Below are positions 24,086 to 41,220 of a DNA stretch of 64,000 nt, piece after piece (the stretch's first letter is position 1; the number at the start of each line of letters is the position of its first letter). Location: contig NZ_FWFO01000001.1 of assembly GCF_900172225.1 (NCBI RefSeq), positions 1,116,001 through 1,180,000 of the forward strand, written 5' to 3'. Position numbers and translations under genes: made by a program. The notes under the pieces are model-generated. The model saw only the letters and a program-made list of their open reading frames with translations, made no database searches and had not been told where the DNA came from. This DNA is from Falsiruegeria litorea R37. Its GTDB lineage: Bacteria > Pseudomonadota > Alphaproteobacteria > Rhodobacterales > Rhodobacteraceae.

Positions 24086-24092
24086 TCCCCCG

Positions 24093-24158: not shown

Positions 24159-24280
24159 AAGCCGGGTTTTTTCAAAAAATCCGCCACCGCGCCCCCGCCA
24201 AGGTCACTCTCCCTTGACTTCTGTGTGCTGGCGCGGTGTATCGGCGCGACGCTATTTTACGCCCCCAAGGGATATCCGAC

Positions 24281-26065: not shown

Positions 26066-26087
26066 GTCTGATCATGTGAAATCAAGG

Positions 26088-26114
26088 CGACCTGTCCGAT
26101 GGGCAGGTCGTTTT
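26088..26114 (+). terminator. intrinsic terminator of aspS
   Basis: CGACCTG and CAGGTCG pair around a 9-base loop that can extend the stem with CC/GG, followed by TTTT. It begins 22 bp after the aspS stop. Confidence 0.8.
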
Positions 26115-26165
26115 ACTTCGCCTGCCTCGAACTGTCTGCTACCCTGTCCTGCAAAGGACGGAAAC

Positions 26166-27548
26166 ATGGGCTTTTCACCGGAATTGGCCGAATTACGATT
26201 TGGGTGCGGTTTGTCACCCGGCCTTGCGCCGCCCGACAGCACCGAGCAGATGTTGGGCGCTTTGTCCGGCCCGGACGTTGCTGCGCTTAGGTATCCGATC
26301 GAAGATTTCCCAGAATTCCGGGCGCGCCTGGTTCAACAACAGCGCCTGACCCGTGCGATACGCAAGGCCAAGACCCCGGCCCGCAAGGCGGCTTTGCGCG
26401 ACGAAAACCGCAAACGCAACAAGGCAACGCGGCGCCAAAGCATTGCCTGGTTTGGCCAAGCGCTGTTGCGCTGGACCCATACACCGCAAGGCTTTCGCGA
26501 ACGTCTGGTGCGGTTCTGGGCCGATCACTTTACCGCCCAGGGTAAACGGGGCGTCATGATCCATGGCGGGCTTCCCTATCAAGAGGAGGTCATCCGTCCC
26601 AATATCTTAGGCCGGTTCGAAGATCTGCTGTTTGCCGCTGCGACCCATCCCCTGATGGTGCATTACCTTGATCAACGCCATTCGGTGGGACCCAACAGCC
26701 AGATCGGCCAGAAAAAGCGCGGCCTGGGACTGAATGAAAACCTGGCGCGTGAGGTGATCGAGCTTCACACGTTGGGGGTCGATGGGCCTTATGATCAGGC
26801 GGACGTGCGCCAATTGGCCGAGCTGTTTACCGGGATCAGCTATGTGCCGGAGAAAGGGTTCGTCTATCGTGCCAAGGCGGCAGAGCCGGGGGCAGAGACT
26901 GTTCTGGGCAAAACCTATGGCGGGGACGACGCGCGGTTTCGTGACATTCGGGCGGTGTTGCGGGACCTTGCGCGGCACCCGGCGACCGCTGACCACATCG
27001 CGCGAAAGCTTGCGGTGCATTTCTTGTCCGACGCACCTCCGCAGGAGCTGGTTGCACATGTGGCCGCGCGGTACCGCGAAACGGGCGGGGCGTTGGTCGA
27101 GGTCTATCATGCGCTGCTCAGCCATCCTCTGGCGTGGGCCCCAAAGTTGGGGAACGTCAAACCGGCGTTTGATTTTGTCGCCTCAGCCTGCCGCGCCTTG
27201 GCAGTGCCGGCGACTAAGGTGACCGAGGCCAAGCCAGGTTTGGTGAAACGTGTATTCCTTGGGCCTCTTCGGCTAATGGGTCAGCCTTGGTTGCGACCGG
27301 CGGGACCAGATGGCTGGTCCGAAGTCGATGCGGATTGGTTGTCGCCACAAGGGCAGGCGGCGCGCATCGGGTGGGCCATGTCCGGGCCTTCAATTCTGAC
27401 ACCGGACCTTGTCGATCCGCGTGTTTTCCTGAGGCATGCATTGGGCAGCTACGCCTCGCCGCTTTTGCAGCACGAGGTTCATGGCGCCGAAAGCCGGGCC
27501 GATGGCATCGGACTGGTGCTCATGTCTCCAAGTTTTCAACGCAGATAA
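26166..27548 (+). CDS. DUF1800 family protein
   Basis: This 460-residue protein matches DUF1800. The family usually occurs next to a DUF1501 gene, as here. Recognisable marks are the long basic helical N-terminus, RLVRFWADHFT near residue 115, GLNENLAREVIELHTLGVDGPYDQADVR-like residues (about 190-220) and the HPATADHIARKLAVHFL segment. ATG 26166 follows AAAGGACGG; no signal peptide is visible. Function is unknown; export together with the Tat-bearing partner is a possibility. Confidence 0.85.
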   Translation: MGFSPELAELRFGCGLSPGLAPPDSTEQMLGALSGPDVAALRYPIEDFPEFRARLVQQQRLTRAIRKAKTPARKAALRDENRKRNKATRRQSIAWFGQALLRWTHTPQGFRERLVRFWADHFTAQGKRGVMIHGGLPYQEEVIRPNILGRFEDLLFAAATHPLMVHYLDQRHSVGPNSQIGQKKRGLGLNENLAREVIELHTLGVDGPYDQADVRQLAELFTGISYVPEKGFVYRAKAAEPGAETVLGKTYGGDDARFRDIRAVLRDLARHPATADHIARKLAVHFLSDAPPQELVAHVAARYRETGGALVEVYHALLSHPLAWAPKLGNVKPAFDFVASACRALAVPATKVTEAKPGLVKRVFLGPLRLMGQPWLRPAGPDGWSEVDADWLSPQGQAARIGWAMSGPSILTPDLVDPRVFLRHALGSYASPLLQHEVHGAESRADGIGLVLMSPSFQRR

Positions 27549-27561
27549 AAAGGGGCGATTA

Positions 27562-28740
27562 ATGGTTGGTGATATGACCCGCAGACATGTTTTGTCCCGG
27601 TCCTTGGCACTTGGGTGTACGGCTGCTGCCAGTCCGTTTGTGTCTTCCGTCAGCTTCGCGCAGACATCTGGGGAAAACCGGCTGGTTGTGATCATCTTGC
27701 GCGGAGGGATGGATGGCATTGACGTGATCCGCCCCTTTGGAGATCCCAACTATTCGTTGGCGCGCCCAACTCTTGCCTCGGATCCATCGCGCGCTGATCT
27801 GGATGGTTTCTTTGGATTGCACCCGGCGTTTGGGGGCTTGATGCCCTTGTGGGACGCTGGTGAGTTGGCCGCTGTTCATGCTGTTGCAACGCCCTATCGC
27901 AACAAGCGAAGTCACTTTGATGGGCAGGACCTGCTTGAGGCAGGTTTGACGACCTTGGATTCTGAGCATGGCGGATGGTTGAATCGCGCGCTGCAACTGG
28001 TGCCGGGGGCCGAGATGCGAACGGCCATGGGGTTGGGGCAGGGCGTGCAGCGGGTCTTGGACGGAACAGCCCCCGCCGGGCATTGGGCCCCTGATGCGGA
28101 TCTGTCGCTGTCCTTGGAAACGATGGAACGCGCGCGGCGTGTGATGTCCGAGGAGACGGCGTTTCTGAATGCGTTCACGCAGGCCGAGATGCTTTCATCT
28201 CCTGTCGGTGGCTCCGGCCAGATGGCAGCGCTGCATAAAGGCGGGATGCACGTCAACATTGCGCGTTATGCGGCAGATCAGTTGCAACAGGATACAAGGA
28301 TCGTTGCATTTTCGTTGAACGGTTGGGACACCCACCGTGATCAACGACGAGGCATGGCGAAAGCCGCCGAGCTGTTGATCGAAGCTATTTTGACGTTGAA
28401 GCGCGAGTTGAGACCAGACATCTGGGGGCAAACCACCGTCGTCACGATGAGCGAGTTTGGTCGCACTGTGGCCGAGAACGGGTCAAAGGGCACGGATCAT
28501 GGAACAGGCGGCGTCATGCTTTTGGCAGGTGGGGCGGTGCGCGGGGGCTGCGTCTACGGAGAATGGCCGGGTTTGGACGAGGCCCAGTTGTATGACCGCC
28601 GCGATTTGCTGCCAACCGCAGACGTGCGTGAAATGACCGCTTGGGTTTTGCGCGCGTCTTTGGGCATAGACGCGGGCGATTTGGAGCGCACGGTGTTCCC
28701 GGGGCTGAAACTTGGGCGTGATCCCGGGCTCATGATGTGA
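27562..28740 (+). CDS. DUF1501 family protein with Tat-type signal
   Basis: The 392-residue protein is a DUF1501 (sulfatase-like alkaline-phosphatase fold) member. The N-terminus has a twin-arginine signal, TRRHVLSRSLALG, with cleavage probably after VSSVSFAQ. Core marks are VVIILRGGMDGIDVI, RSHFDGQDLLEAG, FSLNGWDTH and MSEFGRTVAENGSKGTDHG, which contain likely metal ligands. It starts 13 bp after the DUF1800 gene and forms an operon with it. The substrate is unknown; periplasmic location is inferred from the signal. Confidence 0.87.
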   Translation: MVGDMTRRHVLSRSLALGCTAAASPFVSSVSFAQTSGENRLVVIILRGGMDGIDVIRPFGDPNYSLARPTLASDPSRADLDGFFGLHPAFGGLMPLWDAGELAAVHAVATPYRNKRSHFDGQDLLEAGLTTLDSEHGGWLNRALQLVPGAEMRTAMGLGQGVQRVLDGTAPAGHWAPDADLSLSLETMERARRVMSEETAFLNAFTQAEMLSSPVGGSGQMAALHKGGMHVNIARYAADQLQQDTRIVAFSLNGWDTHRDQRRGMAKAAELLIEAILTLKRELRPDIWGQTTVVTMSEFGRTVAENGSKGTDHGTGGVMLLAGGAVRGGCVYGEWPGLDEAQLYDRRDLLPTADVREMTAWVLRASLGIDAGDLERTVFPGLKLGRDPGLMM

Positions 28741-28824
28741 GTGGTCGAAGTCCTTGCCTGTTTACGCTTTCAGAGCAATGCATGCCGAAGCCGGGTCCTG
28801 TTTGCTTGAACGGCACGCGAAGCC

Positions 28825-28986
28825 CTAGCGTTTTTGCGTCACCGGGCGATACGGCAACACCAGATCCTTTTTCAATTGCACGGTCATGGACGAGCGATTG
28901 CGGCGAATTTCGCGTGCCGCAATGCGTGCCTGAACGAATAGAACGATGCCGAGGGTGCTGAGGGCGATCAAGAACGTCTCGAGCAT
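28825..28986 (-). CDS. small membrane protein (53 aa) coupled to the response regulator
   Basis: ATG 28986 lies one base after the stop of the response-regulator gene (TGAcATG), a spacing typical of translational coupling. The product starts with a hydrophobic helix, residues 4-19 (TFLIALSTLGIVLFVQ), followed by a basic stretch with AAREIRRNRSS and ending VLPYRPVTQKR. The positive-inside rule would place the C-terminus in the cytoplasm. No family is recognised. The tight linkage and a clean helix make it likely to be real; a role together with the regulator is a guess. Confidence 0.5.
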   Translation of the reverse strand: MLETFLIALSTLGIVLFVQARIAAREIRRNRSSMTVQLKKDLVLPYRPVTQKR

Positions 28987-28987
28987 G

Positions 28988-29707
28988 TCAGATGGCCTTT
29001 CTGCGATCCAATCGCTCCTGGATCAGCCCGGCAACCCGTGCGGCATCGGTCGCCACCGGGGCGCCTTTAGCGCGTGCCTTGGCCAGGTCGCGGGCGGCGT
29101 TGGCCAAGACCGTGTCTGACGCGCTACGGGCAACGCCGCTGACAAATTGTGCAACGTAGTCCAGGGTTTTGCCATCACAGGTATCGGTCAACACATCTGC
29201 GACATGTGCCATGTCGTCCTGATAGGCGATGGGATCAGGATCGATGGTTTCATCATGCATGACTCGTGGTCCCGACGGGTGCCGGTCCGCTGGCAGCTTC
29301 GACAAAACAGCGGTTTGGAAGACAGCCAGCGAAGTGATGGGTTTGGCCAGAAAACCGTCTGCCCCGGCGGCGATGGCGGTGTCTTCGGCAAACTCGTCGC
29401 CTGAGGTGCCCAGAATGACGCCCACGCGTGGCGTGGCATTGGCAAGCTCTTCGATCAGGTCCGCGCCCGATCCGTCGGGCAAGCCAAGGTCGACGATGAT
29501 GACCGACGGGCGATAGATCTGCAGATGTCTGCGGGCCGATTTCAGGCAATCCGCACGTCGAATGCGCGCACCGCTGCGCAAACACAATAGACGCATGGCC
29601 TCGCAGGCATAGCGGCTGTCTTCGACCACCAGGATGGTGAGGCCGAGCAGCGGGCGAGTGGCCGTGGGAATACGGAGAGGTGAGGCGAAGGGGTCCGAAT
29701 CGTTCAT
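28988..29707 (-). CDS. response regulator with N-terminal receiver domain
   Basis: Residues 20-135 of this 239-residue protein form a receiver domain: acidic pair Glu29-Asp30, phospho-acceptor Asp73 in VDLGLPDGSG, Thr101 in GTSGDE and Lys122 in AKPITS. The C-terminal 100 residues are helical and alanine-rich (VADVLTDTCDGKTLDYVAQFVSG) with no DNA-binding motif. It may act through protein contact, as receivers with short helical tails do. ATG 29707 has AGGAG. No histidine kinase is nearby. It is followed by the coupled 53-residue membrane protein. Confidence 0.85.
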   Translation of the reverse strand: MNDSDPFASPLRIPTATRPLLGLTILVVEDSRYACEAMRLLCLRSGARIRRADCLKSARRHLQIYRPSVIIVDLGLPDGSGADLIEELANATPRVGVILGTSGDEFAEDTAIAAGADGFLAKPITSLAVFQTAVLSKLPADRHPSGPRVMHDETIDPDPIAYQDDMAHVADVLTDTCDGKTLDYVAQFVSGVARSASDTVLANAARDLAKARAKGAPVATDAARVAGLIQERLDRRKAI

Positions 29708-29865
29708 GACAAGCTCCTCTTGGCAGACTGCTGCCACGCTATGAAACCCTGGCTAACAAGGCGTTAACGCCCAAGCCCGGGCAGATGGGCGATATGGCGC
29801 ACTTGCTCTTGCGGGACGGACCCCCCATAACCCGCTGCAACCAACAGGAGCTTAGGAGATTTGCC

Positions 29866-30270
29866 ATGATCGGCCGTCTGAACCATGTCGCCATTGCCGT
29901 GCCCGACCTCGAGGCAGCCTCGGCACAGTATCGCAACGCTTTGGGCGCCAAAGTGGGCGAGCCGCAGGACGAACCCGATCACGGTGTGACCGTGGTGTTC
30001 ATCGAATTGCCAAATACCAAGATCGAACTGCTCTATCCGCTGGGTGACAACAGCCCGATCAACGGGTTTCTGGAAAAGAACCCCGCAGGCGGCATTCACC
30101 ACGTGTGCTACGAAGTCGAGGATATCATCGCGGCCCGTGATCACCTGAAGGAAACTGGTGCCCGCGTTCTGGGATCGGGTGAGCCCAAGATCGGCGCGCA
30201 TGGCAAGCCGGTGCTTTTCCTGCACCCCAAGGATTTCAACGGCTGCCTGGTGGAACTCGAACAGGTCTGA
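29866..30270 (+). CDS. mce: methylmalonyl-CoA epimerase
   Basis: The enzyme interconverts (S)- and (R)-methylmalonyl-CoA in propionate and ethylmalonyl-CoA metabolism. The 134-residue protein is a vicinal-oxygen-chelate fold: metal ligands are likely His7 in GRLNHVAIAVPD, His79 in GGIHHVCYEV and the late Glu in CLVELEQV. ATG 29866 follows TAGGAG. The following DUF1467 gene is its usual neighbour in roseobacters. The mutase is not in the window. Confidence 0.93.
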   Translation: MIGRLNHVAIAVPDLEAASAQYRNALGAKVGEPQDEPDHGVTVVFIELPNTKIELLYPLGDNSPINGFLEKNPAGGIHHVCYEVEDIIAARDHLKETGARVLGSGEPKIGAHGKPVLFLHPKDFNGCLVELEQV

Positions 30271-30284
30271 CCCATCTAACAAAA

Positions 30285-30307
30285 CGGCCCCCTAAGTGTG
30301 GGGGCCG
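30285..30307 (+). terminator. hairpin between mce and DUF1467
   Basis: CGGCCCCC and GGGGGCCG form an 8-bp stem with a TAAGTGT loop, 15 bp after mce and 22 bp before the next start. It may attenuate the operon or protect the mce message. Confidence 0.55.
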
Positions 30308-30328
30308 ATCCCATGCAGGAGCGCTCGC

Positions 30329-30604
30329 ATGTCCATCACTTCGGCCTTGGTTTTGTACGCCGTCATCTGGTTCATGACCCTGCTCATCGTCCTTCCAATC
30401 CGGGTCAAAACCCAAGGGGATATGGGCGAGATTGTACCGGGGACTCATGCCGGGGCGCCCGAAGTTCATCACATGAAACAAAAGATGTGGATCACGACCG
30501 GGGTAGCCTTCGTTCTTTGGGTGATCATTGGCGGCATCATCCTGAGCGGCTGGATCTCGATCAGCGATTTTGATTGGACGAAAAACCTCCAGTCCAACCA
30601 GTGA
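30329..30604 (+). CDS. DUF1467 family membrane protein
   Basis: This 91-residue protein has two membrane helices: residues 2-23 (SITSALVLYAVIWFMTLLIV) and 52-75 (MWITTGVAFVLWVIIGG). Between them lies LPIRVKTQGDMGEIVPGTHAGAP, the typical DUF1467 loop. The ATG at 30329 is preceded by AGGAG. It regularly follows mce in this group, but I know no function. The sequence fits the family in length and loop residues. Confidence 0.85.
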   Translation: MSITSALVLYAVIWFMTLLIVLPIRVKTQGDMGEIVPGTHAGAPEVHHMKQKMWITTGVAFVLWVIIGGIILSGWISISDFDWTKNLQSNQ

Positions 30605-30661
30605 TCCAAGATCCCCTAGGTCAGTTGTCTTGCAGGATGCTGACCTCTTAATCGCGAAGCA

Positions 30662-30711
30662 CTCCCGCTCGTCGTCAACGCCCCTGGCGGGACGTCTCCT
30701 CCCGTTGGGCC
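30662..30711 (+). repeat. 50-nt intergenic repeat, copy B
   Basis: It begins CTCCCGCTCGTCGTCAA and ends CTCCTCCCGTTGGGCC with 17 bases between. Copy C at 36034 has the same two blocks and the same 17-base spacing but an unrelated middle. It lies between convergent genes and abuts a long hairpin. Confidence 0.65.
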
Positions 30712-30747
30712 AGGCTCATGCGGGCTTTGCCCGCATGAGCCTGGCCC
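30707..30747. terminator. 19-bp perfect hairpin between convergent genes
   Basis: Two exactly complementary 19-base arms (30707-30725 and 30729-30747) flank a TTT loop. The genes on either side are convergent (ends at 30604 and 30791), so a bidirectional terminator is the simplest reading. The left arm shares five bases with the end of repeat copy B. Confidence 0.65.
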
Positions 30748-30790
30748 CCTGCCGTCCGCAGGACGCAAGGCCGATAGGCCGCGCAGGTTT

Positions 30791-31489
30791 CTAGGAGGGT
30801 CGCCCGTCAAGGTGATGGTAAATGTGCGTGAACGTTGCTGCTCCGATGATCGGGATCAACAGGTTGACCAAGGGTACCGACAGCGGCACTGCCATCAGGA
30901 TTCCAGCCATCCAGATCGTGACCGAGTGTTTCGAGCGCAATTTGCGCGCGCCTTCACGTCCAAGGCGGCGCATAGCGGCGAGGGTGAAATACTCTCGTCC
31001 CAGAAGGAAACCATTCAGCGCCCAGAAGATGAAAGGGGCCAATGGTGCAAATATGACATAAAGGATCAGCGCCACAAGGTTTGCTGCAAGCAACACGCCG
31101 AGGAAACTGAGCGAGTCTCTCAGCCCTTCGCTCAAAGGAACGCCGGGCACTGGTGGCAGCTGAGGATAATGCCGATCCTCGACGGCCTGAGCGACCTCGT
31201 CCAGAAACATCGAGGTAAATGCCGATGCCACAGGTACCATCAGAAACACGGACAGAACCATCATCAGCAGCACCGAAGAAACACCAGCAGCATCCCCGAG
31301 CCAGGTTATTTCACCAATCCAGGGCAGGGTTACGGCCGGGCCCACCAGAAATTGCACCAGCCAGACAAAGCCGAACGTGGTGGCGACAAGCAACCCCAGT
31401 GTCAGACCCACGCCCAAAAACAGGACTTTACGAAAGCGGGGATCTCCCATCTGACCCAAGGCGGCAAAAAACGAATTGAGAATGATCAT
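30791..31489 (-). CDS. EI24/CysZ-family membrane protein
   Basis: The 232-residue protein has four to five hydrophobic segments, including LFLGVGLTLGLLVATTFGFVW and SVLLMMVLSVFLMVPVAS. EI24-family marks are FLDEVAQAVEDRHYP and FIFWALNGFLLGREYFTLAAMRR. The related CysZ imports sulfate, but the residues around here match the general EI24 group and sulfate transport should not be assumed. It overlaps the upstream nitroreductase gene by 4 nt, so the two are translationally coupled. Confidence 0.85.
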   Translation of the reverse strand: MIILNSFFAALGQMGDPRFRKVLFLGVGLTLGLLVATTFGFVWLVQFLVGPAVTLPWIGEITWLGDAAGVSSVLLMMVLSVFLMVPVASAFTSMFLDEVAQAVEDRHYPQLPPVPGVPLSEGLRDSLSFLGVLLAANLVALILYVIFAPLAPFIFWALNGFLLGREYFTLAAMRRLGREGARKLRSKHSVTIWMAGILMAVPLSVPLVNLLIPIIGAATFTHIYHHLDGRPS

Positions 31490-32064
31490 TGGGACACCCA
31501 GTTTGTAATGGCGGCCACGTCGGGGCGGGGACGTTCGGGCGGCGCCGCACCTTCGGTGGCGATATGGACAAAGCCCGCGATGCGCTCGTGTTCAGCCAAT
31601 CCCAGGGCTTGTTCACGGAACACACGATCATGGCTGACCCAGCCCGAGAGCCAATTTGCGCCCCAACCCGCCGCCAAGGCCGCGTTCAAAAGCGCAAGGC
31701 AGACCGCGCCTGCCGAATAGGTTTGTTCGATGGCTGGAATCTTTTCCGAGGGTTTCTGCACCTCGATCACTGCAACGGCCAATTGCCCTAGATCGAATTG
31801 GTTTCGGCCCTTTGCGATATCTTCCGAGGATTTTCCCAAAGCCTGTCCTCGCTCTTCGGTCAGAGACGCCAAGCGCGGCATCGCGCCCTGTTCCAGCACG
31901 ACGAACCGCCAGGGTTCCAGCTTGCCGTGATCGGGGCTGCGGGCGGCAGCTGTCAGGAGCGGCATCAATTGCGCGCGCGTCGGGGCCGGAGCCACCAGCG
32001 TCTTGGCCGGGCGTGACCTTCGTGACAGCAGAAATTCCAGGGCGGCAGGGTTCTCAAGGGGCAT
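31486..32064 (-). CDS. nitroreductase family protein
   Basis: This 192-residue FMN-dependent oxidoreductase starts with LEFLLSRRSRPAKTL, has AARSPDHGKLEPWRFVV (FMN binding) and ends with a WGANWLSGW-type core and a C-terminal arm. It resembles the YdjA group of small nitroreductases, which reduce nitroaromatics weakly; the natural substrate is unknown. It is the first gene of a two-gene unit with EI24. Its start at 32064 has no strong ribosome site. Confidence 0.87.
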   Translation of the reverse strand: MPLENPAALEFLLSRRSRPAKTLVAPAPTRAQLMPLLTAAARSPDHGKLEPWRFVVLEQGAMPRLASLTEERGQALGKSSEDIAKGRNQFDLGQLAVAVIEVQKPSEKIPAIEQTYSAGAVCLALLNAALAAGWGANWLSGWVSHDRVFREQALGLAEHERIAGFVHIATEGAAPPERPRPDVAAITNWVSQ

Positions 32065-32216
32065 ATGTGAAACCTATTTACATGCGAGTTGCCTTGTATC
32101 TCGGTCAGTGCGGCCCAAGTTTCAAGGGTAAATCCTGCGTCATAGCCGAGCGATCCGGGTTGTTTTCGACCCAAGATGCCAGATACCTAGGCTCTCAACA
32201 GTACTACGAGGCTTTC

Positions 32217-32414
32217 ATGATCAAATCGTTTTCCCATCTCATTTGCGCTGCATCGTTGTTGGCGGCTTGTCAGCCAACAACTTCAAGCTCGGTCAATGTG
32301 GGGTTTTCGTCTCCTGTCTTTGCAGTGGGCAGCGCTCCACCGCCGGGCCGAACCGAGGCAGAGCGCTCTGCTCGGCGCAAATATTATCAAGGCCCGCGCG
32401 GGGACGAATGGTGA
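32217..32414 (+). CDS. small lipoprotein (65 aa)
   Basis: The 65-residue product starts MIKSFSHLICAASLLAAC, a lipoprotein signal with lipobox LAAC ending at Cys18. The mature part is short, with Ser/Pro-rich sequence and a basic end (EAERSARRKYYQG). I do not recognise it. It ends exactly where the convergent deacetylase gene ends (32415). The ribosome site ACGAGG is weak, but the signal is clear. Confidence 0.6.
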   Translation: MIKSFSHLICAASLLAACQPTTSSSVNVGFSSPVFAVGSAPPPGRTEAERSARRKYYQGPRGDEW

Positions 32415-33539
32415 TCAACCGGGTGTAATTGCGCCGGGGTTCAGTTCGTGTGCCATGTCTTCGACCAGTTCCAAAAGGAAACGGTCAAACCGGGCCGAGG
32501 GTTGGCGCGCCTCCAGAACTTCGGTCAGCGGATCGGGTGCGCTGATGTCGCTGCCTGACAAAGCTTCCAGTGTGGCGTGGGCGCAAAAGGGTACGTGAAC
32601 CTCAGAGTACCCACCTTCGTGTACCAGAACCAATTTGCCCGCGCACAGCCGATCGGCTGCAGCCTTTGTCCTGAGCGTCATCTGCCGATAGGTGTCCGAA
32701 GTCGCCAGCATCCGCGCCAGAGGATCCACGCCCGAAGCGTCATAGCCACAGGCCACAATGATCATTTCCGGCCGATAGGCATCCAGCGCGGGCAGAACAA
32801 TTTGATCCATGACCGCCATATACGCCGTGTGGCCCGCGCCAGCAGGCAACGGAACGTTCAAATTGTACCCTTCGCCGGGTCCTTTGCCCCGGTCAGCGAA
32901 GTCACCGCTGTCCATCGGATAGTTGCCTTCTTGATGCATCGAGATCGTCAGCACATCGGCGCGGTTGTAAAAAATGCCCTCGGTGCCGTTCCCGTGGTGT
33001 ACATCCCAATCTATGACCGCGACACGGCCCAATCCGAGGCTGGATTTTGCGGCTTCAATTGCGATGGCAATGTTAGCCAACAGGCAAAAGCCATTGGGAA
33101 AATCTGGCAGGCAATGATGACCAGGAGGGCGCGAAAGCGCATAGGCATTGGGCATTTCACCGGTCCAAACGGCCCGAACAGCTTCAACGCTCAGACCGGC
33201 AGACAAAGCTGCGATCTCATACCCGCCCGAGCCAAAGGGGGTGCGACGCCCCAACTCTCCACCTGTGCCATCCGAGAGACGTTTGAATTCATCAAGATAG
33301 CCGACGGGGTGGACACGCAACAGATCAGTCCGCGTCGCGGGTTCAGCCCCGCGCATGACCAGATCGCGGGGCAGGCCGGTTACATTCATCAAGTTGATCA
33401 GTCGGCGTTTGGTTTCGGGGCTTTCAGGAAAACCACCTGCGGCCAGCGGCTGCACCAACCCCCCCACTGGCAGGGTAAAGGCATAGTTGCCGCCACTGTG
33501 CCAAAAGCACTTTTCGTCCCAAAAGAACCCGGTTTTCAT
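32415..33539 (-). CDS. class II histone-deacetylase-like amidohydrolase
   Basis: The 374-residue protein belongs to the HDAC/AcuC/APAH superfamily. Zinc-site and catalytic motifs are SRPPGHHC, DWDVHHGNGTEGIF (Asp and His ligands), ISMHQEGNYPMDSG and GYDASGVDPLARML. Length and N-terminus (FFWDEKCFWHSGG) agree best with bacterial HDAC-like amidohydrolases of the Bordetella/Alcaligenes type. Possible substrates are acetyl-lysine or small acyl amides; none can be chosen from sequence. ATG 33539 follows GGGGAGAGG. It is a single gene convergent with the small lipoprotein. Confidence 0.9.
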   Translation of the reverse strand: MKTGFFWDEKCFWHSGGNYAFTLPVGGLVQPLAAGGFPESPETKRRLINLMNVTGLPRDLVMRGAEPATRTDLLRVHPVGYLDEFKRLSDGTGGELGRRTPFGSGGYEIAALSAGLSVEAVRAVWTGEMPNAYALSRPPGHHCLPDFPNGFCLLANIAIAIEAAKSSLGLGRVAVIDWDVHHGNGTEGIFYNRADVLTISMHQEGNYPMDSGDFADRGKGPGEGYNLNVPLPAGAGHTAYMAVMDQIVLPALDAYRPEMIIVACGYDASGVDPLARMLATSDTYRQMTLRTKAAADRLCAGKLVLVHEGGYSEVHVPFCAHATLEALSGSDISAPDPLTEVLEARQPSARFDRFLLELVEDMAHELNPGAITPG

Positions 33540-33613
33540 CTGCTTGCCTCTCCCCTGGACGCGCCGCACAATAGCGGTGGTGCTTGCGGCTCAGTCTTGT
33601 CACACTCGGCCTC

Positions 33614-33892
33614 ATGGCAAGAGCAAAAGTCAAAAACCTGCTGGATCTGTCTGAACACGCGCGCCCTGGACAGGAAATCACGGTCAAGGTCACTCCGAAC
33701 GCTGCACAGACCTCTTTGATGCTCAAGGGAGAGGTCTTGCATGCCTCAGTCACGGCGCCTCCTGAAAACGGCAAAGCAAATGCAGCGGTTGCGCGCCTAT
33801 TGGCGCAGGCTTTGGGGATAGCCCCCAGTGGATTGAGCCTGATGCGTGGTCAAACCTCGAGGCACAAGACGTTCCGAGTAGTCAGCTTTTGA
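33614..33892 (+). CDS. DUF167 (YggU) family protein
   Basis: This 92-residue protein matches the DUF167/UPF0235 family: ITVKVTPNAAQTSLM, APPENGKANAAVARLLAQALG and the basic end QTSRHKTFRV. Structures are known for the family but no biochemical role. ATG 33614 was chosen over one 30 bases upstream because it gives the family N-terminus. It is monocistronic and is followed by a degenerate intergenic repeat. Confidence 0.85.
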   Translation: MARAKVKNLLDLSEHARPGQEITVKVTPNAAQTSLMLKGEVLHASVTAPPENGKANAAVARLLAQALGIAPSGLSLMRGQTSRHKTFRVVSF

Positions 33893-33908
33893 GCATGACA
33901 CTCCGCGC

Positions 33909-33966
33909 ATTTTTCTTGTTTGAAGCACGGCGGGGAGGCGCCTGGCACCGAGGGCAGAGCCCCCAA
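33909..33966 (+). repeat. CCAAATA-type repeat, degenerate copy
   Basis: It reads TTTTTCTTGTTTGAAGCA, then CGGCGGGG, and closes with GGGC-AGA-GCCC, the same order as the copies at 24093 and 56927 with several changes. It lies between convergent genes. Confidence 0.45.
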
Positions 33967-33974
33967 AGCCGCCT

Positions 33975-34214
33975 CTATTCCGGGGTCAGGCGCAGTTGAT
34001 AGACCCCTTCGGGCAGATCCAGCGCCGCCGCCAGATCGCGCAATTGCTCGGGCGACAACGTGATCTTTTGCACGCTGTCCGTGCGGGGATCAAATTGTTC
34101 CAGCGTTACACATTCCGCAAAGCTGTTGATGGTGACATCTTCCTGAAGCGGTGTTTCGCCTTCGTCCACCAGGGTGATGACGGTGGCGTCAAATTCATGC
34201 TCGATTGTAAACAT
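33975..34214 (-). CDS. conserved-type hypothetical protein (79 aa)
   Basis: This acidic 79-residue protein begins MFTIEHEFDATVITLVDEG and contains VTINSFAECVTLEQFDP and a helical LSPEQLRDLAAALDLPEG. It has no signal, membrane segment or known motif. I believe similar proteins occur in other roseobacters but cannot name a family. It is convergent with the DUF167 gene and divergent from the M48 lipoprotein gene. Confidence 0.65.
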   Translation of the reverse strand: MFTIEHEFDATVITLVDEGETPLQEDVTINSFAECVTLEQFDPRTDSVQKITLSPEQLRDLAAALDLPEGVYQLRLTPE

Positions 34215-34334
34215 AAACCTAGAGTGCCCAGCCCAAAGCGCCAATGCAACCAAAAGCCGCGCTGTTTCCGGGTGGCAGCTGCATTTCTGGCGCGCTAGGT
34301 TCTGAAACAGGTCTCAACAGGGAAAGGCTCCTCT

Positions 34335-35039
34335 ATGCGTCGGATGCTATTGCTGCTGGCAGTCGTCATGTCTGCTTGCGGTCAGATCCCTGAGGCGAGC
34401 CTGCCCACGGGTGGCAAATTGCCGGCTGACTTTGATGCAGATGCCGCTGCGTTGAGTTTCCGCCAAGTCAGTGGTGCAGTTGGCCCCGCGGCCGAGCGTA
34501 TCTGCCGCGATCGGACCAGGGGCATCAATTGCAACTTTCGCATCGCCATCAACCTGGACCCAGAGGCGCCAATCAACGCCTTTCAAACCCTTGATGACAA
34601 GGGAAACCCGGTGGTCATATTTACGGTCGCCATGTTGGCCGATGTGCGCAACACGGATGAGTTGGCCTTTGTCATGAGCCACGAGGCCGCGCATCACATT
34701 CTGGGGCATTTGGATAAACAGGCCAATAACGCGGCAGCAGGGGCGGAATTCTATGCCGACCGAGAAGCGCGCAAAGGCGGTACCCCCAGTGATATTCGAC
34801 AGGCGCAAGAGTTGGGGGCCGTGGTCGGATCGCGCATTTTCTCCAAGGAGTTTGAGCTGGAGGCAGACGCTCTGGGTTCGATCATCGCGATGGAGGCCGG
34901 ATACGATCCGCTTCGAGGCGCGCAGTTTTTCTTTCGCTTGCCGGATCCGGGGGACAAGTTTCTGGGATCCCATCCTCCCAACGCCGAGCGACTGGAGATC
35001 GTGCGGTTGGCGGTTCGCAATCCCGGATTGTTGCAATGA
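34335..35039 (+). CDS. M48-family metallopeptidase lipoprotein
   Basis: The 234-residue protein is a periplasmic zinc peptidase of the M48 (Oma1/BepA/LoiP-like) type. The zinc motif is MSHEAAHHILGH (HExxH) and the third ligand Glu lies in FELEADALGSIIA. The N-terminus, RRMLLLLAVVMSACG, is a lipoprotein signal with Cys15. It lacks the TPR tail of BepA. It overlaps the next gene by 4 nt. A role in quality control of envelope proteins is inferred from the family. Confidence 0.9.
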   Translation: MRRMLLLLAVVMSACGQIPEASLPTGGKLPADFDADAAALSFRQVSGAVGPAAERICRDRTRGINCNFRIAINLDPEAPINAFQTLDDKGNPVVIFTVAMLADVRNTDELAFVMSHEAAHHILGHLDKQANNAAAGAEFYADREARKGGTPSDIRQAQELGAVVGSRIFSKEFELEADALGSIIAMEAGYDPLRGAQFFFRLPDPGDKFLGSHPPNAERLEIVRLAVRNPGLLQ

Positions 35040-35404
35040 GCGATTTGATCCGACTGGGCGTAATCTTGACCGATCGCGGCTCAAAATACGCGGTGACCGG
35101 TGCGCGGGTAACCAGCCGGTCCGAAGTGGACGCGGTTCTGACCGAGCTCAAGCAGGACCGTGCCTACGCTAAGGCCACGCACAACACTTGGGCGGCGGTG
35201 CTGCCGCAAGGCGCACTCAAGGCAGATGATGGTGAAAGTGGTGCAGGGATCGTGATCCTGCGGATGATGGAACGGGCGGAGATGAGCGATCATGTGATCA
35301 TCGTCACCCGGTGGTACGGGGGCAAGAAATTGGGTGGTGACCGGTTTCGGCGAGTGCAGGATGCGGTGCGGGCCTATTTTGACGACCGAGGAATCGGGCA
35401 TTGA
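35036..35404 (+). CDS. YigZ/IMPACT-like family protein
   Basis: This 122-residue protein matches the UPF0029 (YigZ/IMPACT N-terminal) domain: TRSEVDAVLTELKQDRAYAKATHNTWA-like start, DDGESGAGIVILRMMER and the hallmark VTRWYGGKKLGGDRF. YigZ family members are linked to translation control in eukaryotes; the bacterial role is unknown. It is shorter than E. coli YigZ (about 200 aa) because the C-terminal domain is absent. Its ATG overlaps the peptidase stop by 4 nt, so the pair is coupled. Confidence 0.85.
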   Translation: MSDLIRLGVILTDRGSKYAVTGARVTSRSEVDAVLTELKQDRAYAKATHNTWAAVLPQGALKADDGESGAGIVILRMMERAEMSDHVIIVTRWYGGKKLGGDRFRRVQDAVRAYFDDRGIGH

Positions 35405-35468
35405 TCTGAATCAAGGCGACGTGGGGCGCCTGCGATACCCTTTGAGTCGCGACACGCGCGATCAGAGG

Positions 35469-35732
35469 ATGAAACTCATGCAAAACCGTGAACAGCTTAA
35501 ACGCCACGCCGATCTTGTCGACCGGATGGCAACCGTCCGTGGCATCGACCTCGAGGAGCAGGCGCTGCGCGGCAATGTCTCGATCGACGAAATCACCGAT
35601 GCGGTGTTCAGCTGCACCAATTGCACGAACCCCGAACACTGCCAGCAATGGCTGAACGGGCGCGACAGTGCACCTGCGACGCCGGAATATTGTCGCAACG
35701 CGGATCTGTTCTCGGCCTTGGCCCCGAAATAG
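35469..35732 (+). CDS. DUF6455-type cysteine-containing protein, copy 1
   Basis: The 87-residue protein has a helical start (NREQLKRHADLVDRMA), then IDEITDAVFSCTNCTNPEHCQQWL and a final Cys in PEYCRNADLF. The spaced cysteines suggest a metal or disulfide site. It matches the small DUF6455 family of Rhodobacterales, whose function is unknown. ATG 35469 follows AGAGG; ATG 35478 is possible. A paralogue follows 10 bp later. Confidence 0.75.
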   Translation: MKLMQNREQLKRHADLVDRMATVRGIDLEEQALRGNVSIDEITDAVFSCTNCTNPEHCQQWLNGRDSAPATPEYCRNADLFSALAPK

Positions 35733-35742
35733 AGAGCTTGTA

Positions 35743-36012
35743 ATGACCGCACGCGACACCCTTGGCCCAATCAACCGCCACTTTTGGCTGACTCGGTCGG
35801 TGGCGCGTTGCATGGGGGTGTCGTTGACCGAGGCGATGGCAACGGGCCGCCTGACCGAAGGGGAATATGCCCGCATGGTCACAACCTGCCGTCGTGCCGA
35901 ATGCGCCGAGACCTGTCAGGAGTGGCTGGCGCAACAGTGCAGCGTCGTGGACGAAGCACCGATGCATTGCGCCAACGCAGAACTGCTGAACCGCCTGCGT
36001 GGAACCGGATAG
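35743..36012 (+). CDS. DUF6455-type cysteine-containing protein, copy 2
   Basis: This 89-residue protein is a paralogue of the preceding gene product. It has the same layout: NRHFWLTRSVARCMGV, a helical middle, then VTTCRRAECAETCQEWLAQQ and a final Cys in PMHCANAELL. Both share the C-x2/4-C...C-Q-x-W-L core. It begins 10 bp after copy 1 and ends before a 50-nt repeat. The pair probably arose by tandem duplication and may form a heteromer. Confidence 0.78.
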   Translation: MTARDTLGPINRHFWLTRSVARCMGVSLTEAMATGRLTEGEYARMVTTCRRAECAETCQEWLAQQCSVVDEAPMHCANAELLNRLRGTG

Positions 36013-36033
36013 GGCATCACAAAGGGCGAGCGG

Positions 36034-36083
36034 CTCCCGCCCGTCGTCAATTTTTCTGATGAAAAACCTCCTCCCGTTGGGCC
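36034..36083 (+). repeat. 50-nt intergenic repeat, copy C
   Basis: It starts CTCCCGCCCGTCGTCAA and ends CTCCTCCCGTTGGGCC with a 17-base middle TTTTTCTGATGAAAAAC that forms its own 6-bp hairpin. Ends and length equal copy B, while the middle differs. It lies between convergent genes. Confidence 0.65.
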
Positions 36084-36142
36084 CGGCCTCGCTACGCTCG
36101 GCGGGTTGCGCGTGTTGCGAAACAGGTGCCCCAAGCGAAACC

Positions 36143-36163
36143 GCGCCGGGCATCGCCCGGCGC
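36143..36163. terminator. hairpin before the CDGSH gene end
   Basis: GCGCCGGGC and GCCCGGCGC form a 9-bp stem with an ATC loop. It lies 72 bp beyond the 3' end of the convergent CDGSH gene, and no U-run follows. Confidence 0.45.
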
Positions 36164-36234
36164 TGGGCCCAAGGCCGCCAGCGGTGCTGACGCAGTCAGG
36201 ATCGTGCGGGCGCGGGAGCCCCCCTTGTTGACCC

Positions 36235-36477
36235 TCAGAGCTTGGAGTGGCTGCCGTCGCAGAGGGGGGATTTGTCGCTGGCCTTGCAGCCGCAGAAGAA
36301 GACCTTTTTGTCCGCGGGCGCCGTGTATTTGACCGGGTTCAGGCCGGTGTCCTTGTGCGATCCATCGCAAAAAGGTTGTTTCTGAGACTTCCCGCAGGCG
36401 CACCAGAAATAGGTTTTCCCCTCGGTCACCTCGACCGGATAGGGGGCTTTCTGGGCGATGATGGGCGCGTCGGACAT
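36235..36477 (-). CDS. CDGSH iron-sulfur domain protein with two domains
   Basis: The 80-residue protein contains two CDGSH motifs: CACGKSQKQPFCDGSH (about 26-41) and CGCKASDKSPLCDGSH (about 62-77). Each supplies three Cys and one His to a [2Fe-2S] cluster, as in the MitoNEET family. Bacterial double-CDGSH proteins fold as a single chain mimic of the eukaryotic dimer. A redox or cluster-transfer role is likely; the partner is unknown. ATG 36477 has a ribosome site AAGGAG. Confidence 0.9.
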   Translation of the reverse strand: MSDAPIIAQKAPYPVEVTEGKTYFWCACGKSQKQPFCDGSHKDTGLNPVKYTAPADKKVFFCGCKASDKSPLCDGSHSKL

Positions 36478-36809
36478 GTGGCTCTCCTTGGATGGCGTGT
36501 GTCTGATCCAGAGGATAGCGGAGTGGGGGAGGATTGGTAGGTTGTTGGCTGTGGCGTTGCGGTCTTTCCGGGCAGTGGTTTTGCGCAGATGCGGCAGATA
36601 GACCCAATGTTGCCGTGTCTACTGGAAAACAACACGTTACTTCTTAAGTAAATGTACACGTGTCTGTGTGTATGCAATGCTGAAAGCGACGTACGTACTT
36701 TTGATACGTAGTAACGTTTGAAAATCGTTGCCAAAGTGTAAGCATCTGCTAAGACGCGGTACAGTACCAGTGTAGTTTTGAACTGTAACTTTGTAGGAGG
36801 GCGTATGTT
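36478..36809. other. AT-rich leader of the ImmA/IrrE module
   Basis: From about 36610 base composition drops sharply in GC and stays low to about 37740. The stretch contains two TACGTA palindromes eight bases apart (36692-36697, 36705-36710) and the promoter-like site listed separately. No gene with a ribosome site was seen. The frame antisense to it (36426-37070, minus) is a shadow. Confidence 0.5.
36728..36768 (+). promoter_or_regulatory. candidate promoter with overlapping operator
   Basis: TTGCCA (36728-36733) and TAAGAC (36750-36755) are spaced by 16 bases, and the perfect palindrome GGTAC-A-GTACC (36758-36768) lies at the expected start of transcription. A repressor bound there could block initiation. 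Inference only. Confidence 0.35.
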
Positions 36810-37271
36810 ATGACAGATATCAAGCTGCGAGCTGAGCTTCTTCGCAAGAAGTACGATCTGACCAAACCGCCGTACAATGCGGAAACTATTGCCGAAAATG
36901 AAGGGGTTGACGTTCAATTTGTGAACTTTTCTCCAGAGGCAAGCAAGAAGATTCATGGTTTCTACGATCATGACGAAAAGAGAATCTACGTAAACACCGA
37001 CGATGAACCGCAGGAAAAACTCTTCACTATAGCTCATGAGCTGGGCCATCATTTGTTGCATATTGAACATGCAGCTAGTGCAGAATATGTACCCCGGCTA
37101 AAGTTCGAAGTTGACACAGAGATGGAGCGGGAAGCTGACTTTTTTGCTGAATGCTTGTTGGCACCATCCGACGAAGTGAAGAAGTATTACCCGGCACTTA
37201 CCGAAAAACAGTTGAGTTCAATGTTTTTGGTGTCGCCTGATATCATTTCAAAGGCGCTCACCCGCGTGTGA
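36810..37271 (+). CDS. ImmA/IrrE-family metallopeptidase
   Basis: The 153-residue protein is a zinc peptidase-like domain: zinc motif IAHELGHHLLH near 77-87 and third-ligand segment MEREADFFAECLLAP near 107-121, with the family insert GFYDHDEKRIYVN. ImmA and IrrE cut repressor-like proteins in response to DNA damage; usually an HTH repressor lies beside them, but here none does. AGGAGG lies nine bases upstream; an ATG at 36805 opens only a two-codon frame (ATG TTA TGA). Base composition is unlike the neighbours, suggesting transfer. The stop overlaps a terminator hairpin. Confidence 0.88.
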   Translation: MTDIKLRAELLRKKYDLTKPPYNAETIAENEGVDVQFVNFSPEASKKIHGFYDHDEKRIYVNTDDEPQEKLFTIAHELGHHLLHIEHAASAEYVPRLKFEVDTEMEREADFFAECLLAPSDEVKKYYPALTEKQLSSMFLVSPDIISKALTRV

Positions 37272-37281
37272 GCGCTTTTTT
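37254..37281 (+). terminator. intrinsic terminator between the two island genes
   Basis: GCGCTCAC and GTGAGCGC form an 8-bp stem around CCGCGT, followed by six T. The hairpin includes the last codons and stop of the peptidase gene, and the next gene starts 8 bp after the T-run. Confidence 0.8.
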
Positions 37282-37288
37282 CGTATAA

Positions 37289-37720
37289 GTGACGACTGTG
37301 ACTGAAAATTTTGAAGACAACTACAAAAAATTCAACCTAGATTTTGCAAAAAGCTCGTTGCTACGAGACAGTGTCCAAGATCGAGACAGCGATCTAGACG
37401 ATAGCTTGAAGGCGGCGGAGCAAGTAACGCACAAGTATCGTGAAGACATTATTGAGCTTCACTTGGATAGTATCAGGCTGTCGCACGAAGACCAAAAAGA
37501 TAACCGTCGGATGAGGTGGAACTACTCACAGTGGGTTTTTAGTTATCTTGTGTGCTACTCTATGTTCGTTTTTGTGTTGTTGATCTTTGATGGATTCGAG
37601 CAAGTGACTTTTGATTTACCAGCCTCAGTTCTGGAGTTTTTGGTTGGAAGCACGGCAGTAAGCTCGATCGGGTTGGTCGCGGCAGTTGTCGCTGGGTTGT
37701 TCAATAAGCGTGAAAAATAA
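37289..37720 (+). CDS. two-helix membrane protein of unknown function
   Basis: The 143-residue protein has a charged, helical cytoplasmic N-terminus (1-78), then two membrane helices: about 81-103 (WVFSYLVCYSMFVFVLLIF) and 113-137 (VLEFLVGSTAVSSIGLVAAVV). It ends NKREK. From memory, a C-terminal VGSTxxSxIGL-type hairpin occurs in many small membrane proteins of defence-like loci, but I cannot assign a family. It starts with GTG (37289, or 37298) just after a terminator, so expression relative to the peptidase may be uneven. It shares the low GC of the peptidase. Confidence 0.75.
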   Translation: MTTVTENFEDNYKKFNLDFAKSSLLRDSVQDRDSDLDDSLKAAEQVTHKYREDIIELHLDSIRLSHEDQKDNRRMRWNYSQWVFSYLVCYSMFVFVLLIFDGFEQVTFDLPASVLEFLVGSTAVSSIGLVAAVVAGLFNKREK

Positions 37721-37743
37721 GAGGCACTGCGTGCGCTTCTCCT

Positions 37744-39165
37744 TTAGTCGGCTGATGGAGCTTGGGCCATGCGCCCCCACAAATCATACTCCCCCGCCTC
37801 ATCTACTTCGACCGTGACGATCTCGCCAACACTCAACTCTTCGGTCCCTTCATCAATGAACAGGTTCCCGTCGATCTCGGGTGCGTCGGCCTTGGTGCGG
37901 CAGGTGGCGACGCCGTCTTCGTCGATGTCGTCCACGATCACGTCCATGACCTGACCCACCTTGGCCTCTAGCTTGGCCTCGGAAATCGCCTGCGCCTTTT
38001 CCATGAAGCGGTCCCAGCGGTCCTGTTTGACCTCGGCCGGAACGTGATCGGCCAAATCGTTTGACCGCGCGCCGTCGACGTTTTCGTATTGGAAGCAGCC
38101 GACGCGGTCCAATTGCGCCTCGTCCATCCAGTCGAGCAGATATTGGAATTCGGCCTCGGTCTCGCCCGGATAGCCCACGATAAAGGTCGAGCGCAGGGTG
38201 ATGTCGGAGCAGACCGCGCGCCAGGCGGCGATCTCGTCCAGGGTTTTGGCCGAGGCCGCGGGGCGGGCCATGCGTTTCAGGACATCGGGGTGGGCGTGCT
38301 GGAACGGGATGTCGAGATAGGGCAGCACCGCACTCTCTGGGTCCGCCATCAGCGGGATCAGCTCGCGCACGGACGGGTAGGGATAGACATAGTGCAGCCG
38401 CACCCAGAGGTCGCGGGCGTTGCCCAGCTTGCCCAGCTCGCGCGTCAGATCGGTGATGTGGCTGCGCACCTCGCCGTCTTTCCACGGGTTCACATCGTAT
38501 TTGCGGTCGAGGCCATAGGCGGATGTGTCCTGGCTGATCACCAGCAGTTCGCGCACGCCTGCGCCGACCAGCTTTTCGGCCTCGCGCAGCACCGCATGAG
38601 CCGGGCGGCTGGCCAGTTTTCCGCGCATGTCGGGGATGATGCAGAACTTGCACTTGTGGTTACAGCCCTCGGAAATCTTGAGGTAACTGTAGTGGCGCGG
38701 GGTGAGCTTGACGCCGCTGGCGGGCAGCAGGTCGACAAACGGGTCGGGCGAGGGGGGCACGGCGCCGTGCACCGCATCGAGCACCTGTTCGTATTGGTGC
38801 GGGCCGGTGACGGCCAGGATGCGGGGGTGATGCTCGCGGATGTAATCCGGCTCGGCCCCCAGGCAGCCGGTCACGATGACCTTGCCGTTCTCGGTCAACG
38901 CCTCGCCAATGGCGTCGAGGCTTTCGGCCTTGGCGCTGTCGAGAAACCCGCAGGTGTTGACGATCACCGCATCGGCACCCGCATAGTCGGGCGAGACGCC
39001 GTACCCTTCGGCCCGCAGCCGGGTCAGGATGCGTTCGCTGTCGACAAGCGCCTTGGGGCATCCCAGGGACACCATTCCAATCGTTGGCTGGCCTGCGCGG
39101 GGCTGCTCGGTCATCCGGGCGGCGGGGGCAAGGTCGGGGCGGAGATTTGGCGGGTTTGTGCTCAT
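37744..39165 (-). CDS. rimO: ribosomal protein S12 methylthiotransferase
   Basis: RimO adds a methylthio group to Asp88/89 of ribosomal protein S12. The 473-residue radical-SAM enzyme has the N-terminal MTTase domain with three Cys ([32 protein letters not shown]), the radical SAM triad [16 protein letters not shown] and a C-terminal TRAM domain. SRP-type QDTSAYGLD and [10 protein letters not shown]-like blocks separate it from MiaB. The ATG at 39165 is chosen by homology. It is divergent from the AsmA gene. Confidence 0.94.
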
Positions 39166-39264
39166 GCTCGCGCGTATAGTGGGGTTTGGTGGCCCTTGCA
39201 AACGTTGTGCGGAGGACGGTGCGCTGGCATAGAATTGGGCAAAAGACGGCTAAGGAGCAGTGTC

Positions 39265-41220
39265 ATGGGGTGGTTGGTTCGGATCAGTGTGATCCTGATT
39301 GTGGTTGTTGGGCTGGTGGTTGGTGTCCTTTTGCTGCTGCCGGGAGACAAGATTGCCTCTCTCGCTGCGGATCAGATCAAGGCGCAGACCGGGCGCGACG
39401 TCGATTTCGGCAAGGATGTCAAAGTCACGCTATGGCCCGTTTTGGGGGTTGAAACCGGGACAGTGACCGTTGGCAACGCGGATTGGGCCAGTGACGCACC
39501 GATGCTGACGGCCGATGCCCTTTCGATCGGCGTTGCCGCCGCGCCTTTGTTGTCCGGCGAGGTGCAAATCAAACGTGTGATCGCGCAAAACCCGGTGCTT
39601 CGTCTGGAAGAGGCCAAAGGGCGGAAGAATTGGGATTTCTCGACATCGCCTTCTGCGGGCGGTGGGGCGTCCAGCGGCACCGCGGTCGTGTCCGCCCCCG
39701 ATGCGTTTGGCGTGACGCTGGAACGTCTCGAACTGCGCAATGCGCGCCTGATCCACGTGAAGGACGGGCAGAGGGACTTGGATTTTGCAGGTGTCACGCT
39801 GAAAGCGCGCTGGCCAGAGCCAACCGCGCCGCTGGATGTCGAGGCCTCATTGGCGATCGGTGCGGACAGCATCGACGTGGCCATGACACTGCCTGACCTG
39901 CCAGGCTTTGCGGCGGGGCGCGTGACGGACATGAACTTTACCCTGACCGCGCCAGAGACCACCATCAGCTACACAGGCAAGGTCAGCAGCGCGGGCGAGA
40001 TTGCCGGGCAAGCCAAACTGTCGGCCAAGGACACGGCTCGGATGTTGGCCGCCTTTGGCCAGCCGGGTGTTCGCCTGCCCAAGGGGCTGGGGCAAGCGGC
40101 AGAAGTTGCGTCGCAAATCACCTATACGCAGGATGGCAAGCTGGCCCTGCGCGGGTTGACGGCTAACTTGGACCAGAACACATTTTCAGGGAACGCGGAT
40201 CTGTTGGTTGCGGACCCACCGCAGGTGACTGCGCGCCTGTCGACGGGCACTCTGGATTTGACGGAGCTGTCCGGGGGAAGCGGGGCCGGGGCAGGGCGCG
40301 AAGCGGTGGCGGGGCCCTCAAGCGGATGGTCCAAGGCGCCGATTGATGCTTCGGGGCTGGCTTTGGCCAACGGCAGCATTCGGTTGACGGCACAGGCCAT
40401 CAAGACCACGACGTTGAACCTTGGGCCCAGTGATCTGACACTTGAGCTGGATCGGTCGCGCGGAGTGCTGAAGCTGGCGCCGGTGTCGATTTTTGGCGGA
40501 ACCGTGACAGGGCAGCTTGTGGCCAACAACCGCAATGGGCTGTCGGTGGGGGGCAAGCTGCAGATGGACGGGATCGAGGCCCAAGATGCGATGGTGACTT
40601 TCGCCGACATTGACCGTTTGTCAGGCAAGCTGAACGGCAATTTCGAGTTTCTGGGCGTGGGGCAGACAGAGGATGCGATCTTGCGTTCCCTGTCCGGGAA
40701 GGGCGCGTTGCAGATGGGGCGTGGTGTGATCTCGGGGATTGATCTGGACGGTCTGATGGGCAGTGGTAGCGGGTCGGGGGGGGCAACTGTGTTCAACAGC
40801 CTGACCGCCAGCTACACGATCCAGAATGGCAATTTGGACAACCGCGATCTGTTGTTGCAACTCGACAATTACCGCGCGGATGGCACAGGCCGGGTTGGTC
40901 TCGGCGCGCGTGACATCGACTATCTGTTTACGCCTATCGCGTTGCGTGCCAACGCGGGCCAGGGGCTTTCCATACCGGTGCGTATCGTGGGGCCTTGGGC
41001 GGATCCGGCGATCAAACCTGACCTGAGTCAGGTGATCGAGGCTGCTGCCGGGGTCGAAATCGACAAGATCGAGCAAGAGGCCAAGGATCGTGCGCTCGAG
41101 AAGCTGGGCCAAGAACTGGATACCACCGTGACCGAGGATCAGAACATCGAAGAGCTGATCAAGGACCGGCTCGAGGATGAAGCCAAGAAAGGCGTGCTAA
41201 AGCTTTTTGGGCTCGACTGA
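39265..41220 (+). CDS. AsmA family protein
   Basis: The 651-residue protein has one N-terminal membrane anchor (4-26, LVRISVILIVVVGLVVGVLLL) and a long periplasmic beta-rich body. AsmA/TamB-like marks are LASLAADQIKAQTGRDVDF-type start, VGNADWASDAPMLTADAL and the C-terminal GNFEFLGVGQTEDAILRSLSGKG. Family members help lipid transport to or assembly of the outer membrane. ATG 39265 has TAAGGAG; an in-frame extension far upstream is antisense to rimO and not real. It is monocistronic. Confidence 0.88.
   Translation: MGWLVRISVILIVVVGLVVGVLLLLPGDKIASLAADQIKAQTGRDVDFGKDVKVTLWPVLGVETGTVTVGNADWASDAPMLTADALSIGVAAAPLLSGEVQIKRVIAQNPVLRLEEAKGRKNWDFSTSPSAGGGASSGTAVVSAPDAFGVTLERLELRNARLIHVKDGQRDLDFAGVTLKARWPEPTAPLDVEASLAIGADSIDVAMTLPDLPGFAAGRVTDMNFTLTAPETTISYTGKVSSAGEIAGQAKLSAKDTARMLAAFGQPGVRLPKGLGQAAEVASQITYTQDGKLALRGLTANLDQNTFSGNADLLVADPPQVTARLSTGTLDLTELSGGSGAGAGREAVAGPSSGWSKAPIDASGLALANGSIRLTAQAIKTTTLNLGPSDLTLELDRSRGVLKLAPVSIFGGTVTGQLVANNRNGLSVGGKLQMDGIEAQDAMVTFADIDRLSGKLNGNFEFLGVGQTEDAILRSLSGKGALQMGRGVISGIDLDGLMGSGSGSGGATVFNSLTASYTIQNGNLDNRDLLLQLDNYRADGTGRVGLGARDIDYLFTPIALRANAGQGLSIPVRIVGPWADPAIKPDLSQVIEAAAGVEIDKIEQEAKDRALEKLGQELDTTVTEDQNIEELIKDRLEDEAKKGVLKLFGLD

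Follow-up and report, generated by a model that had tools for sequence, protein, structure and literature searches.

ImmA has been described as a hub antitoxin domain that occurs in variable gene order (Ernits et al., 2023; PMC10440598). The same study tested the RosmerTA pair of Gordonia phage Kita: the toxin has a C-terminus with a predicted membrane location, is toxic by itself and leaves cells depolarised and permeabilised, the ImmA partner acts as the antitoxin, and a few coliphages are blocked by the two together (PMC10440598). Panacea is likewise an experimentally established antitoxin domain, and the toxins that it neutralises include membrane toxins whose N-terminus is charged and which have a C-terminal transmembrane (TM) region (PMC8832971).

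Here, we describe a pair of genes encoding the proteins P0001 and P0002, which lies between a CDGSH gene and rimO in a 64-kb window (the whole stretch of DNA that was analysed; Table 1) and which is probably a divergent toxin–antitoxin module, type II-like and acquired horizontally, of the Kita RosmerTA kind. The GC content is 0.455 in the peptidase gene and 0.440 in the gene of the membrane protein, and the four lowest of all 500-nt tiles of the window (GC 0.444–0.460; mean over the window 0.594, SD 0.035) fall in the pair. The third-position GC content is 0.49–0.51 in the two genes, whereas rimO and the CDGSH gene have 0.82. No HTH gene adjoins the pair, either in the ORF listing or in the surrounding sequence, and there is no tRNA within the 64-kb window. 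The original prediction had pointed to two genes of low GC at this position and to a peptidase without a neighbouring HTH repressor gene, and both observations hold. The earlier reading of the pair as an island is supported, and the island is horizontally acquired.

Comparison with related genomes locates the insertion. Three congeners (G001–G003) keep the CDGSH gene and rimO, lack P0002 and carry different AT-rich cargo in the intervening DNA, which places an insertion hotspot at the 3' end of rimO. Homology breaks off at the end of the DLWG codons of RimO, whose C-terminal tail varies with each cargo. The corresponding interval in G008 is only about 286 bp and serves as an empty-site comparison. 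A search for marks of site-specific integration found no integrase at the junction and no flanking direct repeat at the rimO junction in the loci examined, those of G005, G006 and G007 being uninformative since the motif search missed the junction. In a survey of 30 genomes of the family (that of the window and 29 from other genera), AT-rich genes lie right behind rimO in several, and the 3' end of rimO is a possible defence hotspot of the Rhodobacteraceae. Such cargo in other genera includes L097, an AbiU2-like HEPN protein, and L095, a DUF5655/NucS-like protein. The proteins found at this place in G002 and in G006, from another genus, are related to each other (28% identity, E = 3e-34) and are a candidate unknown defence gene.

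Table 1. Features of the locus, cargo at the rimO 3' end in other genomes and loci with an upstream TM gene.
Feature	Position	Strand	Basis or remark
AT-rich DNA stretch	from about 36558-36640 to 37771		slight correction of the earlier extent
Insertion boundary, CDGSH side	36541..36640	.	blastn against G001-G003 loci; congener homology ends at 36541-36557
AGGAGG ribosome-binding site of peptidase gene, 9-nt spacer	36795..36800	+	sequence, script
P0001, standalone ImmA/IrrE (M78) zinc peptidase, 153 aa, ATG start	36810..37271	+	Pfam, PADLOC, fold match
Terminator-like hairpin, 12-bp stem and T-run, spanning the peptidase stop codon	37250..37281	+	inverted repeat, folding
P0002, 143-aa membrane protein, GTG start	37289..37720	+	profile of ImmA-linked 2TM proteins
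Insertion boundary, rimO side	37771..37775	.	blastn, compared RimO tails; directly after conserved DLWG codons
Hotspot interval, window	36541-37775
Hotspot interval, L016	6077-7285
Hotspot interval, L017	6065-7341
Hotspot interval, L018	2517-4226
Hotspot interval, L019	6543-7565
Cargo in G001, TM protein plus VTT-domain protein
Cargo in G002, 322-aa protein	L016 6265-7233	-	no significant Pfam/PADLOC match
Cargo in G003, FRG-domain protein	L017 6208-7104	-	candidate defence family PDC-S15, E = 2e-96
Cargo in G006 (another genus), 340-aa protein	L019 6543-7565	-	no significant Pfam/PADLOC match
Loci with small TM gene directly upstream of ImmA	L031, L063, L065-L068, L070, L073, L078, L080, L086

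P0001 matches the Pfam family Peptidase_M78 with E = 2.6e-17 (63.2 bits against a cut-off of 22). Its zinc motif HELGHH provides His76-Glu77-x-x-His80, and the downstream residues Glu106 and Glu108 are invariant in the four aligned homologues. The AlphaFold2 model (pLDDT 87) matches IrrE/PprI and CapP in the PDB (E ≤ 1e-4), together with mycobacterial ImmA-type regulators that contain the same domain. Domain, motif with glutamate and IrrE-like fold thus all place P0001 in the ImmA/IrrE (peptidase M78) family, and the intact HELGHH peptidase with a third Glu ligand that had been read from the DNA is confirmed. Among the PADLOC models the best match is CapP (4.2e-19), followed by RmrA (4e-15). 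The catalytic residues are fully conserved among the aligned relatives, which suggests that catalysis matters. P0001 is presumed to be the antitoxin and to be RmrA-like.

P0002 has the layout that had been predicted for it, with a charged N-terminal half followed by a C-terminal TM hairpin formed by hydrophobic segments at about residues 80–100 and 112–135. An in-frame TAA lies just upstream of its GTG start codon. A test profile of two-TM (2TM) proteins linked to ImmA, constructed from 12 relatives with P0002 left out, gives P0002 a score of 32.5 bits (E = 2e-9); among more than 400 other TM ORFs the best non-member reaches 7 bits. By sequence, P0002 therefore belongs to this 2TM family, most members of which have the motif '[VIL]GL ... 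LF' in the second helix. P0002 has no match in PADLOC (E ≤ 10), in NCBIfam or at the gathering level in Pfam, and a fold search with its poor model (pLDDT 64) gave no significant match. Membership in the SLATT group was rejected (SLATT_5, E = 0.16, 11.8 bits versus a cut-off of 29.5). P0002 is presumed to be a membrane toxin similar to RmrT D5.

The two genes lie on the same strand and are separated by a 17-nt gap, unlike most relatives of the pair, where the genes overlap by 4–23 nt. The hairpin at the junction folds with −19.7 kcal/mol (z = −2.9), and no comparable perfect hairpin is present at five other junctions inspected. No ribosome-binding site was detected by a sequence script upstream of P0002. 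The hairpin, the missing ribosome-binding site of the toxin gene and the rimO hotspot are the unusual traits of this locus. Co-expressed genes would not be expected to have a terminator between them, which counts against the toxin–antitoxin reading. Together with a second gene that lacks a ribosome-binding site, the terminator-like hairpin would agree with decayed or neutral acquired DNA and no working partnership. We consider this highly improbable, since both ORFs are intact, the catalytic motif and the hairpin motif are conserved and the pairing persists across families.

This pairing was followed in several sets of genomes. The nearest relatives of P0001 at the level of the order, L025 (38%) and L026 (41%), both have a small protein with a C-terminal hairpin encoded directly downstream of the ImmA gene, and the same adjacency of ImmA and 2TM genes recurs in L059 and in prophages. 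Class-wide searches run separately with a peptidase profile and with the 2TM profile arrived at neighbouring genes in G230, from a different family. The 2TM family lies immediately downstream of ImmA in 14 of 80 prophage and viral loci (IMG/VR, searched with the 2TM profile). A small TM gene follows within 60 nt in 25 of the 48 non-redundant short ImmA genes on viral contigs, while the longer ImmA proteins of that set (about 300 residues and more) are mostly without one. In the cellular set 16/35 ImmA loci have a small TM gene next to them on either side, compared with none of 64 ordinary ORFs; this control was made with a crude ORF caller and gives a rough background only. On these counts the adjacency of ImmA and 2TM genes is more than chance. 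The original prediction had been staked on the membrane gene being found beside ImmA genes elsewhere, and the viral tally bears it out. The recurrent pairing is thus supported, whereas its proposal of the membrane protein as toxic effector in a toxin–antitoxin or abortive-infection pair is supported by analogy only.

Sequence searches with single proteins were less productive. Searches with tblastn of P0002, P0001 and their relatives found no match in plasmids or phages, which we attribute to a limit of sensitivity because phage Kita, in the same collection, encodes a relative at the profile level. A scan of the viral set with P0002 alone also found nothing, no additional genome of the class sample gave a match to PHROG 26171, and four weak blast matches (L004–L007) were taken as chance. 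A different layout recurs as well, in which a standalone ImmA gene is directly preceded by the gene of a small TM protein (Table 1). In these proteins the TM segment is N-terminal or central and the C-terminal helix is charged. No family name was found for them, and they possibly represent a second ImmA-linked type of membrane toxin, in toxin-first order.

The frequent occurrence of this cassette in prophage and viral contigs would also suit a prophage remnant serving superinfection exclusion or lysogeny, in which the membrane protein, its expression controlled by the peptidase, blocks the entry of DNA from related phages. The ORF listing of the window, however, contains no integrase or repressor gene flanking the pair, expression of the Kita toxin by itself is toxic (PMC10440598) and the 2TM family also occurs with Panacea. 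Such a role is therefore quite improbable.

The link to Panacea comes from the closest single relative of P0002 (L003/L024, from Aquimixticola soesokkakensis), which shares 47% identity over the hairpin and adjoins a SocA_Panacea gene (Panacea E = 1.5e-19). A further member found with the 2TM profile, L090, lies in another Panacea operon (E = 3.8e-18). As the 2TM family thus has either Panacea or ImmA upstream of it, we infer by the logic of NetFlax that ImmA occupies the antitoxin position. Besides the Panacea gene, the L090 operon (629–1698) contains an 81-aa 2TM gene and a RelE/YafQ-looking gene without a Pfam match; a single antitoxin possibly serves two toxins there. Homology of P0002 to four other Panacea-linked TM proteins of the order (L034, L041, L044 and L048) was rejected: hhalign of mixed alignments looked positive, unlike hmmsearch, which gave 4.7 bits. 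These four proteins were compared with P0002 in architecture alone because hmmsearch gave no support.

The exchange of partners also bears on a rival mechanism, in which infection or stress causes the peptidase to cut the membrane protein and so frees a pore-forming activity. The full conservation of the catalytic residues of P0001 suggests that activity matters, and its closest PADLOC model, CapP, is a CBASS-associated protease. Against this, the ImmA partner of RosmerTA acts as an antitoxin (PMC10440598), and the pairing of the 2TM family with Panacea, a non-protease antitoxin, points to neutralisation. Activation by cleavage is thus an improbable reading of the pair.

Gene structure, family membership by sequence, recurrent adjacency, the swapping of partners with Panacea and the insertion hotspot are established by the analysis, and a toxin–antitoxin mechanism can be sketched on this basis. 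By comparison with the Kita toxin and PanT, the C-terminal hairpin of P0002 would insert into the inner membrane and depolarise or permeabilise it. P0001 would keep P0002 inactive, either by binding to its charged N-terminus or by cleavage. Phage infection or another stress would remove or divert P0001, so that the membrane collapses and the infection is aborted. The hairpin at the junction and the missing ribosome-binding site of P0002, combined with the strong AGGAGG preceding P0001, may keep the level of the toxin below that of the antitoxin, as toxin–antitoxin modules need. A more specific version, in which a standalone ImmA protease without a DNA-binding domain neutralises the membrane toxin by cleaving it, the toxin family swaps between this protease and Panacea as a binding antitoxin, and the rimO site is a shelf for small defence cassettes exchanged by the Rhodobacteraceae, is rather unlikely as a whole.

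The anonymous two-gene island thus becomes a testable toxin–antitoxin pair. Cassettes of a standalone ImmA and a C-terminal hairpin protein are widespread in alphaproteobacteria and prophages, although their toxin is not recognised by the annotation libraries that were used. One toxin family adjoins two unrelated types of antitoxin, ImmA and Panacea, and the 3' end of rimO is a place to seek further small defence genes.

CapP works with the HTH repressor CapH and with CBASS genes. It resembles P0001 as its best PADLOC match and as a fold match in the PDB, but neither an HTH repressor nor CBASS genes lie beside the P0001–P0002 pair. ImmR/ImmA of ICEBs1 shares the M78 peptidase domain with P0001, but no HTH repressor substrate adjoins P0001; the adjacent repressor that characterises ImmR/ImmA and CapH/CapP is therefore absent here. 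The PanT T3/T12 toxins (Kurata 2022; PMC8832971) resemble P0002 in their charged N-terminus and C-terminal TM segment, but their antitoxin is Panacea rather than a presumed peptidase antitoxin such as P0001. The RmrA models of PADLOC have the ImmA domain in common with P0001 (best E = 4e-15) but are about 360–400 residues long, and P0001, with 153 residues and no HTH domain, matches an inner stretch of about 125–270. The locus consequently departs from the canonical PADLOC model of RosmerTA, with no full-length RmrA and no RmrT match for P0002.

The closest counterpart is the pair of phage Kita, which was analysed over positions 24000–40000 of KU963257. Gene 32 encodes a standalone 178-aa ImmA protein (M78 E = 4.6e-18; ImmA family profile E = 1e-18), and gene 33, which overlaps it by 4 nt, encodes a 119-aa protein with a C-terminal hairpin. 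From coordinates and domains we infer that genes 32–33 are the published RosmerTA pair (RmrA D25/RmrT D5), because gene 33 is the C-terminal TM partner. The other HExxH protein among the translated genes of this region, gene 44, adjoins the immunity repressor. As in Kita, the ImmA gene at our locus has a small toxin-like gene next to it in the same orientation, and the ImmA protein is standalone, of similar size, without an HTH domain and placed first. The lack of a neighbouring HTH gene is usual for the Kita-type RosmerTA subtype. The product of gene 33 shares with P0002 the charged N-terminus, the TM hairpin and the end motif '[IVL]GL...LF', and the same 2TM profile detects both, although for gene 33 the relationship is weak in sequence (E = 6e-5, 18 bits; hhalign probability just 36%). 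The Kita genes overlap, whereas a gap and a terminator-like hairpin separate P0001 and P0002, and the Kita pair differs in host and resides in a phage rather than in a chromosomal rimO hotspot. The original prediction of an undescribed system is not supported: an ImmA-type antitoxin with a membrane toxin is of the RosmerTA kind, already described and tested in the Kita pair (PMC10440598), to which this locus, as a probable divergent member, adds the hairpin at the junction and the rimO hotspot.
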